Source: Bifidobacterium bifidum ATCC 29521 = JCM 1255 = DSM 20456
GTDB taxonomy: Bacteria > Actinomycetota > Actinomycetes > Actinomycetales > Bifidobacteriaceae
Reading direction: 5' to 3'
Length of the DNA: 64,000 nt
Assembly: GCF_001025135.1 (NCBI RefSeq)
Contig: NZ_AP012323.1
Coordinates: 1-64,000 of the forward strand
In this document: one piece after another, positions 3,404 through 43,238 of the stretch
How the letters are laid out: each line of letters begins with the position of its first letter
Numbering within the stretch: position 1 is the stretch's first letter
Translations under genes and position numbers: made by a program
Notes under the pieces: model-generated
Told to the model about the DNA's origin: nothing
The model's input: only the letters and a program-made list of their open reading frames with translations
The model's database searches: none

Positions 3404-4717
3404 TTGTACATTTCGCGTCTTGCGCTTGACCATTACCGGTCATGGAACCATTGCGTGCTCGACCTCACGCCGGGCATCAACATCCTGCAGGGGGCGAACG
3501 GGCTTGGGAAAACCAACATCGTCGAAGCGATAGAAGTGCTGTCCACGGGCCTGAGCCATCGCACATCCAGCTCGGTTCCGCTGGTGCAGCGCGGCGAACA
3601 TGCAGCGACGATCCGGGCCAATATCGAATCCGTGACGGATCCGGAGCCCGCTGATGATGGCGTCAATACCAGCGCTGATGCCGTGGATATCTCGGACATG
3701 AAACCGGTCCGGCAGACACAGACCACCACCCTTGAGGCCACGATTGCGGCACGCGGCGCCAACCGCGCCCGCATCAACGGCGGGCAGTCGCGGTATCTGC
3801 GGGAGATTCTCGGCACGCTGCCGACCGTGAGCTTCACTCCGGAGGATCAGCAGCTTGTGGCGGGCGACCCCGCCGTGCGCCGCTCGTTCATCAATCAGGT
3901 CGCCTCGCTGCTGATTCCCGGATATGCGAACCGGTTGCAATCATTCACGCACGTCGCCAAGCAACGGGCGGCACTGCTCAAACAGCTCGGTCAATGGCAG
4001 CGTGCAGGATCCCCGATTGACGCCGCGCTCAGCGGGCTGGAGATCTGGACCGGACAGTTCATCGAGGCGGGAGTCGCGCTCAGCCGCGACAGGCAGCGCA
4101 TCATCGCGGAACTGAACAAGTCGTTCGGCCCGCTGTATGCCAGATTGGCCGGTGTGGCGGGCGACTTGCCTTCCAATGCGGAAATTCAGGATACCGCGCA
4201 GAATGGTGGTGAGCAGGCAGCGGTCGAATACGTGCCGTCATTCGACGAGATCCTTGGAACACAGGCGCCCGAACCGTTGATAAGCCAGCATTTCCAGCGC
4301 ATCTATCCCGGCGAGGTGTCTCGCGGCGTCAATCTGATCGGCCCGCAACGAGATGACCTGTTGGTGACGCTCAATGGCATGCCGGCCAGGGAATTCGCCT
4401 CCAACGGCGAGATGTGGACGTTGGCCCTGGCATTGAAGATGGCACAATACCGGGCCCTCTGCGAGTATTTCGACACCAGGCCGGTGGTGATTCTCGACGA
4501 TGTGTTCGCTCAGCTCGACGAATCGCGCCGCACCGAGATCCTGCATTTTGCCGCGGCTCAGGATCAGGTACTGATCACCGCGGCCGCGGAAAGCGATATT
4601 CCGATACTGCCGGCGAACGAGTCGGCAGAATCCGGCGAGATACCGGTGAACCGCATCGCAGTGGCCGATCTCAAACGGCGCGACGAAGCGGATGCCGAGA
4701 GGGCCGGCGAACAATGA
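3404..4717 (+). CDS. recF: DNA replication and repair protein RecF
   Basis: RecF is an SMC-like ATPase that helps load RecA at single-strand gaps. The 437-residue protein begins with the family hallmark YISRLALDHYRSW, has Walker A (GANGLGKTN) near residue 31, and near residue 361 the ABC-type Walker B run VVILDDVFAQLDESRR. Translation starts at TTG 3404, seven bases after AGGAG at 3392-3396. The stop overlaps the next gene by four bases, which implies translational coupling. It is somewhat long because of an Asp/Thr-rich insert near residues 85-110. Confidence 0.96.
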   Translation: MYISRLALDHYRSWNHCVLDLTPGINILQGANGLGKTNIVEAIEVLSTGLSHRTSSSVPLVQRGEHAATIRANIESVTDPEPADDGVNTSADAVDISDMKPVRQTQTTTLEATIAARGANRARINGGQSRYLREILGTLPTVSFTPEDQQLVAGDPAVRRSFINQVASLLIPGYANRLQSFTHVAKQRAALLKQLGQWQRAGSPIDAALSGLEIWTGQFIEAGVALSRDRQRIIAELNKSFGPLYARLAGVAGDLPSNAEIQDTAQNGGEQAAVEYVPSFDEILGTQAPEPLISQHFQRIYPGEVSRGVNLIGPQRDDLLVTLNGMPAREFASNGEMWTLALALKMAQYRALCEYFDTRPVVILDDVFAQLDESRRTEILHFAAAQDQVLITAAAESDIPILPANESAESGEIPVNRIAVADLKRRDEADAERAGEQ

Positions 4718-41175: not shown

Positions 41176-41189
41176 TGGGCGCTGTGCCC

Positions 41190-41235
41190 GGCGCTGTCCT
41201 TTCATCCCCTTTCAATAATTCTTACATGTTAGAAT
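41190..41235. repeat. 46-bp direct repeat, left copy
   Basis: This segment (starting GGCGCTGTCCTTTCATCCCC) is repeated without change at 42959-43004. The two copies bracket the AlbA_2/HATPase gene, giving a 1769-bp unit. Confidence 0.9.
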
Positions 41236-41286
41236 TCTCCGTTAACATGTTAGAATTCTCCGTTAACATGTTAGAATTATTGAAAG
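41209..41286. promoter_or_regulatory. Iteron array before the AlbA_2/HATPase gene
   Basis: Two perfect tandem 21-bp units (41224-41244, 41245-41265) and a partial third (41266-41278) share ACATGTTAGAATTCTCCG. Each junction makes the palindrome TAACATGTTA (41243-41252 and 41264-41273). The array is enclosed by a perfect 14-bp inverted repeat, CTTTCAATAATTCT (41209-41222) with AGAATTATTGAAAG (41273-41286). The ribosome-binding site follows directly. It looks like an operator with sites two helix turns apart. Confidence 0.85.
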
Positions 41287-41304
41287 CCGTGAAAGGAAGA
41301 GCCG

Positions 41305-42951
41305 ATGCTGCCGACCAAGGAAAGCCTGACGGTGGAGTTCAAAAGCGAACGCCAACGCCCGCAAACCGATGACGAAATCGTCGACAATGTGGTGGCGATG
41401 GCCAATACCGAAGGCGGTACGCTGTACCTTGGTGTCGAAGACGATGGCATGGTGACTGGGGTCTGTGACCGGCATCGCAATGTCAATGGTCTGGCGGCAT
41501 TCATTTTCAACAAAACGGTTCCTCAGCTTTCCGTGCGGGTGACGTTGCTGAGCGAGAGCGGCAAACCGGTCGTCGGCATTGAGGTTGACAGCAGTCAGCA
41601 GATCGTGTCCACCAGTCAGGGGAAGACGCTGCAGCGCCGGCTGAAAGCCGATGGCGCGCCAGAAGTCGTTCCGATGTTCCCTGCGCAATTCATCAGTCGT
41701 TTGTCGCAGCAGCGTAGTTACGACTACAGCGCGCAGCCTGCTCCGGGGTCGACGCTGTCCGATCTTGATCCGTCTGCGCGCGACCGTCTCAGGGAGAGCA
41801 TACGCACGGCCAATGCCGGCAGCTCATTGTTGGCGTTTGATGATGAGGACTTCGATCGGGCCCTAGAACTGGTAGTCGACGGCCCTGGCGGCCCGCAGCC
41901 TTCCGTGGCCGGTCTGCTGGTCATCGGTACGGAGCGGGCACTGAAGCGTTCCGTACCGTCGGCCTCCGCCGTATTCCAGGTCATGAAAGGCACGTCTCCC
42001 AAGGTAAACACAGATCCGTTCTTCCTGCCGCTGATCGATATGCTCCCTCGTATCGGCGCACTGATGGAACCATGGAATCCAGATCATGAGGTCATGAGCG
42101 GTCTGGTCCATGTCAATCTGCCGGACTTCGATCATCAGGCGTTCCGCGAGGCGGCAGTCAACGCGTTCTGCCACAGGGATTATGCGAGGATGGGATCGGT
42201 GCGGTTCCTCGTGGACGACGATGGCCTGACCATATCCAACCCGGGAGGTTTCATCGAGGGATTGAGCGAAAACAACCTGTTGACCGCGCAGCCGCGTTCC
42301 CGCAACCCTCAGCTCGCCTCCATCCTCAAGACGGCGGGATATGCGGAACGCACCGGTCGTGGTGTCGATAAGATATATGCCGGCTCCTTGGCTTCCGGCG
42401 GGGCATTTCCCGATTATTCGCAGTCCACGGCGTCGGAGGTGGTGCTGTTCCTGCGTCGCGTGGTGCCGGATGAGGCATTCGTTGTGATGATTGCCAATGA
42501 AGAGGCTCGCCGTGGCGCTCCGTTGTCGGTGTGGTCTCTAATCGTGCTGTCGTTGCTGCGGGAGCATCGCAGACTCAGCGTGGCGCAAATGCGCGAATTC
42601 TCGCGAGTGGAGTCTCGGCGATTGGTCGGCGCGGTCGAAAGCCTAGTGGAGAGCGGGCTGGTGGAAGCCTGCGGCAGCGGTGTCGCACGAGATTATATGC
42701 TGAGCGCGCGTGTATATAAGAGGGATGATAAGTTGCCGGCTTATGCGAGGCAAAAGGGCCTCGACGGTCGGCGGGAGAACCTGGTGACGGAATTCGCGCT
42801 GAACAATGGGGGCGCGGCGACCACGTCTGACGTGATGAAGCTGCTGGATTTGTCTTATATCAGCGCGTACAGGCTCATGAAGAGACTTGAGGGGGAGGGC
42901 GTATTCCGGCATGAGGGGAGTGGTCCCTCATCCCGCTACGCGTTGGTGTAA
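41305..42951 (+). CDS. AlbA_2 (Schlafen-like) / HATPase_c_4 domain transcriptional regulator
   Basis: The 548-residue protein starts with an AlbA_2 domain (about residues 5-125; ESLTVEFKSER, MANTEGGTLYLGVEDDG). It continues with the RecG-C-terminal-like HATPase_c_4 domain (about 240-375; FREAAVNAFCHRDYARMG, ISNPGGFIEG, GYAERTGRGVDKIY) and ends with two winged-helix segments (SVAQMREFSRVESRRLVGA; TSDVMKLLDLSYISAYRLMK). The family is widespread and mostly uncharacterised. AAAGGAAGA precedes the ATG. The tandem operator before it suggests autoregulation (inference), and the flanking 46-bp direct repeats suggest mobility or duplication. Confidence 0.9.
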   Translation: MLPTKESLTVEFKSERQRPQTDDEIVDNVVAMANTEGGTLYLGVEDDGMVTGVCDRHRNVNGLAAFIFNKTVPQLSVRVTLLSESGKPVVGIEVDSSQQIVSTSQGKTLQRRLKADGAPEVVPMFPAQFISRLSQQRSYDYSAQPAPGSTLSDLDPSARDRLRESIRTANAGSSLLAFDDEDFDRALELVVDGPGGPQPSVAGLLVIGTERALKRSVPSASAVFQVMKGTSPKVNTDPFFLPLIDMLPRIGALMEPWNPDHEVMSGLVHVNLPDFDHQAFREAAVNAFCHRDYARMGSVRFLVDDDGLTISNPGGFIEGLSENNLLTAQPRSRNPQLASILKTAGYAERTGRGVDKIYAGSLASGGAFPDYSQSTASEVVLFLRRVVPDEAFVVMIANEEARRGAPLSVWSLIVLSLLREHRRLSVAQMREFSRVESRRLVGAVESLVESGLVEACGSGVARDYMLSARVYKRDDKLPAYARQKGLDGRRENLVTEFALNNGGAATTSDVMKLLDLSYISAYRLMKRLEGEGVFRHEGSGPSSRYALV

Positions 42952-42958
42952 GGTGACT

Positions 42959-43004
42959 GGCGCTGTCCTTTCATCCCCTTTCAATAATTCTTACATGTTA
43001 GAAT
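42959..43004. repeat. 46-bp direct repeat, right copy
   Basis: It is identical to 41190-41235 and is followed by two degenerate iterons (ACATGTTAGAATACCCCG; ACATGTTAGAACTTCG) still about 21 bases apart. No gene follows them in the plus direction, so the regulatory part has been copied without its gene. Confidence 0.9.
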
Positions 43005-43238
43005 ACCCCGTTGACATGTTAGAACTTCGTTGACCGTGGCCGGCGGACATGGTGCTTTCGACGCGCCACACGGCATCAATAAGGGGGCCCGCTAGGCGCA
43101 GGCCCCCGAATCAGTCAACTATGAGAGTCTATTGTCGCGGATGTGGGCAGTTACCTCGTTCTTGGACGAATACTGTCCGGGGCGATTCAGGAAGTGATTT
43201 ACTTTCAGTATCTGAAGCCCTCCGCCTTGCGTTACGGT

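Follow-up and report, generated by a model that had tools for sequence, protein, structure and literature searches.

We consider it fairly probable that one gene in the window, the 64,000-nucleotide stretch of a Bifidobacterium bifidum genome analyzed here, forms together with its flanking repeats a single-gene, self-repressed Schlafen effector cassette that can be deleted through its own operators. This reading draws on the domains and conserved residues of the protein, on the arrays and their coupling to the gene, on promoter matches in many relatives, and on a recombinant empty site and solo arrays in other genomes. From these observations we infer operator binding, repression, RNase activity, an activating signal and a role in defense. 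The gene is probably an RNA-cutting growth-arrest or defense gene and, judging from its sequence, seems to switch itself off via the flanking arrays. The features are as follows.

41184..41255, forward strand: 5' copy of a 72-bp direct repeat, which holds the unchanged 46 bp from 41190
41209..41286, no strand assigned: candidate 5' self-operator array (array model R1, E 2.3e-15)
41305..42951, forward strand: gene of a 548-aa protein with Schlafen AlbA_2, GHKL ATPase and tandem winged-helix parts
41320..41640, forward strand: SLFN_AlbA_2 domain with E6-x4-E11-x-K13, the proposed RNase site, conserved in 97/97
42211..42435, forward strand: HATPase_c_4 (GHKL) stretch, a Pfam match
42466..42948, forward strand: two C-terminal winged helices (aa ~388-480 and 487-548), the proposed operator-binding part
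42953..43024, forward strand: 3' copy of the direct repeat (R1, E 8.4e-14), with a partial 3' operator array at 42983-43024

In the 5' array, a 23-bp inverted repeat encloses three 21-bp units, of which two are full and one is partial. The units (TTACATGTTAGAAT at 41222, TAACATGTTAGAAT at 41243 and again at 41264) are spaced by 21 bp, and the three together form two TAACATGTTA palindromes. In the outer inverted repeat, CTTTCAATAATTCT/AGAATTATTGAAAG, 14 bp match perfectly, and the match can be extended to 23 bp at 96% (41209-41231 / 41264-41286). The 46 bp at 41190 have an identical copy at 42959, behind the gene; in full, the direct repeat spans 72 bp with 93% identity (41184-41255 / 42953-43024), and its 3' copy contains two more units, at 42991 and 43012. 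The tandem units, the two palindromes, the perfect 14-bp enclosing repeat and the unchanged copy behind the gene with its two further units had all been described in a previous sequence-only reading of this DNA, and all were confirmed. When one mismatch is allowed, TNACATGTTAGAAT has seven matches in the 2.21-Mb genome, all of them within the two flanks of this gene, and the reversed control has none. This confinement leads to the self-operator reading; at the same threshold, no unit that would indicate a wider regulon occurs in this genome beyond the two flanks.

The architecture proposed for the protein earlier (AlbA_2, HATPase_c_4 and winged helices) is borne out. Two domains exceed the Pfam cut-offs (SLFN_AlbA_2: E 2.1e-17, 64.1 bits vs 25.3; HATPase_c_4: E 5.5e-14, 52.4 bits vs 26), while the winged helices score below the cut-offs by sequence and are clear in the AlphaFold model of the 548-aa protein (mean pLDDT 88.6). 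The Schlafen RNase residues E6, E11 and K13 are present in 97 of the 97 aligned relatives, as are E282, N286 and H290 just ahead of the HATPase_c_4 match. In a profile alignment, E6-x4-E11-x-K13 lines up with E..E.K of the Schlafen chain 5yd0 (E 4.1e-5); of the four Schlafen alignments inspected, one spans E-x4-E-x-K, and the three SLFN5 ones start after E6. According to the passages of the SLFN11 study that concern these residues, E209, E214 and K216 are essential (PMC9482658), and they match E6, E11 and K13 of the protein studied here. The N-terminal domain is structurally similar to the SAMD9 tRNase domain (Z 10.4, 134 residues, rmsd 3.0) and to SLFN5/14/13/11 (Z 9.1-9.6, ~105 residues, rmsd 2.5-2.6). 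Given the conserved E6/E11/K13, the 5yd0 alignment and these fold matches, nuclease activity of the N-terminal Schlafen domain is likely. The protein has no match in NCBIfam, and its matches in PADLOC are three weak ones, to Argonaute-associated models.

The top structural match is 3LMM (Z 28.5, 434 residues, rmsd 14.5, 24% identity), the uncharacterized DIP2311 of Corynebacterium diphtheriae. It has the same domains in the same order; however, the rmsd of 14.5 indicates that they are set differently, and the profile aligns only positions 20-51 of the N-terminal domain. Human SLFN5/11/13/14 and the SAMD9 tRNase domain are alike in the N-terminal fold, with the E-x4-E-x-K site as in SLFN11, and these human proteins are not known to carry a GHKL ATPase or a winged-helix tail like those found here. 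Proteins composed of a Schlafen RNase, a minimal histidine kinase and a wHTH domain carry a label that we take to be COG2865. Such prokaryotic proteins have been reported near BREX systems, in passages that give them the same domain order, predicted RNase and defense setting as the gene in the window (PMC12839542). The gene studied here differs in being a lone gene with arrays on both sides and with solo-array scars in other genomes; those passages mention neither arrays nor scars. TrlG of Photorhabdus laumondii shares the AlbA_2 plus HATPase_c_4 architecture, and the sections of the paper devoted to it state that the wild-type gene limits growth at 36 C and that mutations are recessive (PMC7554251). 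Unlike the lone gene in the window, TrlG belongs, by the same sections, to a heat-induced three-gene operon with a separate putative regulator; the words “palindrom” and “operator” are absent from the main text of that paper. Among the matches listed from the literature, preprints and most subscription papers excluded, there is no description of two-sided self-operator arrays or of solo arrays.

In the reading that we favor, the unit has an operator array at either end and, between the two, one coding sequence in which a Schlafen-type RNase is followed by a GHKL ATPase and by tandem winged helices. These helices would bind the palindromic array of their own gene. The 21-bp spacing corresponds to two helical turns, so that dimers could sit side by side on one face of the DNA, and dimers lying over the promoter would repress the gene. 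The 3' array might seal the gene against convergent or read-through transcription, or permit looping. An activating signal, perhaps phage infection, would be sensed via the ATPase, and the activated Schlafen domain would cleave tRNA, or some other RNA, and so arrest growth. Finally, since two near-identical arrays lie on its sides, the gene should be deletable: recombination between them would remove it cleanly, and a solo array would remain.

A different possibility is that the protein is a plain local transcription factor for a neighbor (ahpC-trxB, ppc) and for itself. Tandem winged helices and the position of the gene in a trxB-ppc block in several species are what such a factor would lead one to expect. 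We nevertheless regard it as quite improbable: with at most one mismatch the unit occurs only at the flanks of the gene, a family member elsewhere adjoins tgt (product assigned by eye), and the RNase residues are invariant. The label “regulator” given in the sequence-only reading is probably too narrow: the only target found is the gene itself, and Schlafen RNase residues are located at the N-terminus.

Promoters were sought in the 120 bp upstream of the homologues. Two non-Bifidobacterium classes, composed according to record titles mostly of Lachnospiraceae and other Bacillota with some Treponema and others, have a promoter match of at least 10/12 in 46 of 56 cases, compared with 15/436 for controls, and in loci inspected by eye the promoter hexamers are inside the array. 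In the three Bifidobacterium classes a match of at least 10/12 is present in none of 17 upstream regions and a 9/12 match in 8 of the 17 (controls 0/136). The in-array match in the window is also 9/12, with two sites found against 0.8 (sd 0.9) in shuffles, so the apparent overlap of array and promoter is weak there. Self-control, suggested earlier from the window alone, is supported at the sequence level by an array that is specific to the gene, absent elsewhere in the genome, follows the clade, and lies on a good promoter in many relatives.

The family survey covered 80 named loci (the best 80 of 497 confirmed) and 17 Bifidobacterium loci. An upstream inverted-repeat score of at least 16 was obtained for 70 of 96 homologues, compared with 20 of 567 control stretches, and the remaining 26 scored lower. 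A 9-mer or its complement occurs at least three times upstream of 52/96 homologues (controls 16/2213); the count exceeds that in the homologue's own shuffles at 1% in only 46 of the 96, and six of the 96 have no repeated upstream 9-mer. The array sequences are wholly different between clades (AACGCACGCGTGCGTT, TTTAACTCGA, TGAATTCA, GGACATGTCC and others). Six operator classes were placed on a tree of 97 proteins with 75 rows labelled. They require 5 changes, which is the minimum possible, against a shuffled mean of 37.6. We conclude from these comparisons that palindromic arrays are a habit of the family and that the array sequence tracks the protein clade. A large and poorly understood family thereby gains a testable design, an RNase effector with a clade-specific self-operator, and the covarying arrays are ready protein/DNA pairs for specificity studies.

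Arrays on both sides are less common. A stretch common to both flanks with a score of at least 14 was found in 31 of 94 homologues (controls 1/459). By eye, 25 of these matches are arrays and six are other sequence (L122, L124, L129, L130, L156, L167); in most of the homologues surveyed by the 94 two-flank comparisons, no 3' array was seen. This bears on whether the 3' repeat is a functionless chance segmental duplication added to ordinary autoregulation. The 3' copy in the window is partial. Moreover, arrays of the same locus are 89-96% identical (6 loci), whereas between loci the mean is 82.7 and the maximum 92.7 (68 pairs, with the G043/G014 pairs left out), which is expected from recent duplication or gene conversion. 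We nevertheless consider this explanation very improbable: in many lineages there are 3' arrays of the gene's own type, with array sequences that are unrelated (25/94, by eye).

The sequence-only reading had also suggested that the unit escapes by recombination and had predicted empty sites that retain one copy of the repeat. Homologues with E <=1e-60 are present in 26 of 112 Bifidobacterium genomes. A scan for the core of the array found it in 11 of the 112, two of them without a close homologue, and the array model at E 0.01 found an array in 15, of which 10 have a matching gene and five have none at the E 1e-60 limit (G070, G042, G065, G063, G003). Weaker homologues were sought in G042 and G070 only, where the best have E 1.8e-16 and 2.2e-9, and G003 has a split gene copy of the other array type elsewhere in its genome. 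Among the five solo arrays, two have weak scores (E 2.6e-4 and 5.2e-4) and look decayed. All five sit in the trxB-ppc block, which is the home of the gene in several relatives.

The clearest empty site is that of G070, a sister species found by cross-genome comparison, which has no gene, keeps one array and is colinear with G043 (96% over 5.9 kb). At the positions that distinguish the two arrays of G043, the left part of its array agrees with the 5' array and the right part with the 3' array, with a switch within ~20 bp; of the sites further right, beyond the core, one is again of the 5' type and a few differ from both G043 arrays. According to this pattern, the G070 array is a recombinant of 5' and 3' arrays like those of G043, and the gene was lost between them. 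In G014 the gene occupies this same site, beside ppc, which makes loss in G070 the simpler history. Together with the solo arrays in four further genomes, this single recombinant array upholds both the predicted empty site and escape by recombination. The outcome resembles a solo LTR, in which recombination between flanking repeats drops the coding part and one repeat stays. This is an analogy only: the unit is no retroelement, and its repeats are putative operators. Solo arrays make gene loss and cassette exchange readable straight from genomes.

Other observations concern the same kind of site. G045 has a partial gene copy with a stop, near oxlT, which points to gene decay. In G043 (L060:9387-11317) only the last 76 codons of ppc adjoin the Schlafen unit, and other open frames follow, one of them nucleotide-binding-like by eye, so ppc seems to be interrupted there. 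A search for empty sites outside Bifidobacterium showed that the 5' flank of L115 is largely repeated in its own genome; at L115:2690-2838, behind a gene that by eye is leucine-rich-repeat-like, it includes sequence of which that genome has several copies. The flank of L122 matched 8 of 200 genomes, its own included, and the one examined closely has no clean empty site.

The genome of the window encodes two paralogues, one intact (at 171,691) and one truncated (at 215,345), together with three distant matches. Both paralogues have another array, CTCTGAATTCAGAG, located ahead of the intact gene and behind the truncated one. The core of this second type is present in 9 of 112 genomes, beside a gene copy in seven (the copy of G003 being split) and without a close copy in two; no useful 3' scar word common to the type-2 loci emerged when one was sought. 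Old arrays of either type are found beside other genes. In G042 a solo type-2 array adjoins a PIN/HTH gene pair, and a type-1 solo array lies ~65 bp upstream of an Hma-like defense operon beside trxB (L067:5323-15831; HmaA E 0, HmaB 3.2e-263, HmaC 2.5e-237), whose HmaB frame is without the first 148 profile positions. That array may now be the promoter region of the operon. In G004 a solo type-2 array stands at a site that resembles the type-2 gene of G067 in its 5' flank. The array is followed there by a distant AlbA_2/HATPase gene (27% identity), which has its own tandem array of another sequence type, CCTAGGAA/TTCCTAGG (L211:1638-1726). Because of this distant gene, self-arrays may reach beyond the close family.

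In the clade of the window, identity in the gene goes broadly with identity in ppc (10 pairs from five genomes), and the G064 pairs are lowest in both. The agreement is loose, since G000-G039 ranks first in ppc (90.1%) and only fourth in the gene (77.4%). Inheritance there looks vertical, broadly though not cleanly, and the place of the gene inside the trxB-ppc block differs between genomes. Elsewhere, 90-94% identical genes occur in unrelated flanks in three groups (L114/L115/L118/L119, L117/L128/L136 and L143/L154/L164). Up to 3 kb per side were compared, with only 239 bp available behind L117 and 269 bp before L164. What members have in common is 95-121 bp on the upstream side, roughly the array (156 bp for L143/L164), and 0-30 bp on the downstream side. 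By these comparisons, array plus gene is a sharply bounded single-gene unit that has moved between other species, its spread being deduced from the flanks. There are also pairs with comparable identity whose flanks are shared (for example L013/L014, L106/L107, L122/L130, L144/L147 and L166/L179); some copies therefore stay put, and movement is not constant.

Such borders are also what would be expected of a mobile single-gene element with the arrays as its ends, inserted at existing arrays, or recombined with them, by its own product or by an enzyme of the host. Solo arrays would then be target sites or footprints and not deletion scars. By eye, the first 3' unit starts with the TAA stop codon in L128, L132, L143 and L164, and old arrays now adjoin the Hma-like operon, the PIN/HTH pair and the distant Schlafen gene with its own array, all of which would suit this explanation. 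We still judge it unlikely. The domain search found no recombinase domain in the product of the gene, the only gene of the unit, and empty sites retain an array. No short target duplication was seen by eye at the borders inspected, and the 3' border shifts by up to 25 bp inside one group. The pairs that keep their flanks and the broad gene/ppc agreement in the clade of the window also stand against it. On the same grounds (no recombinase, no general target duplication, apparently broadly vertical inheritance in the clade of the window), the earlier suggestion that the repeat arose by integration is not borne out.

Several other origins were rejected. Direct repeats that lie beyond the arrays were considered as insertion duplications, namely those of L129 (58 bp), L124 (44 bp, imperfect), L122 (17 bp) and L130 (15 bp); they are not general across loci. 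A plasmid iteron origin was rejected in view of the single 2.21-Mb contig and the lack of a plasmid match to the DNA of the unit. An integrative element with a recombinase is rejected because the sole gene has no integrase or transposase domain. The shared unit in the three unrelated-flank groups contains one gene and no antitoxin gene, which speaks against a two-gene toxin-antitoxin system. As for a phage or viral origin, 20 candidate stretches in viral contigs included no confirmed relative, and phage protein matches are distant. The protein matches 27 of 50,697 phage and 47 of 72,556 plasmid records, all at <60% identity, and the relatives among the matches listed (15 each) have at most 28%. 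Since these records hold distant relatives only, the link of the unit to phage is indirect.

We advance only tentatively, as something we doubt, a broader version of the self-repressed cassette: a widespread one-gene selfish defense cassette in which the same arrays are both self-operator and recombination ends. If so, the arrays would silence a Schlafen RNase and mark the borders of the unit, and the unit would be lost or swapped for other defense genes at fixed sites, leaving datable scars.

L129 has its 58-bp direct repeat (2815-2872, 4639-4696), with an intrinsic-terminator-like hairpin, outside the arrays and around the whole unit. Downstream of the gene in L027 and L033 there is a small gene, HipB-type antitoxin-like by eye, with its own palindromic array ATGTTAG/CTAACAT.
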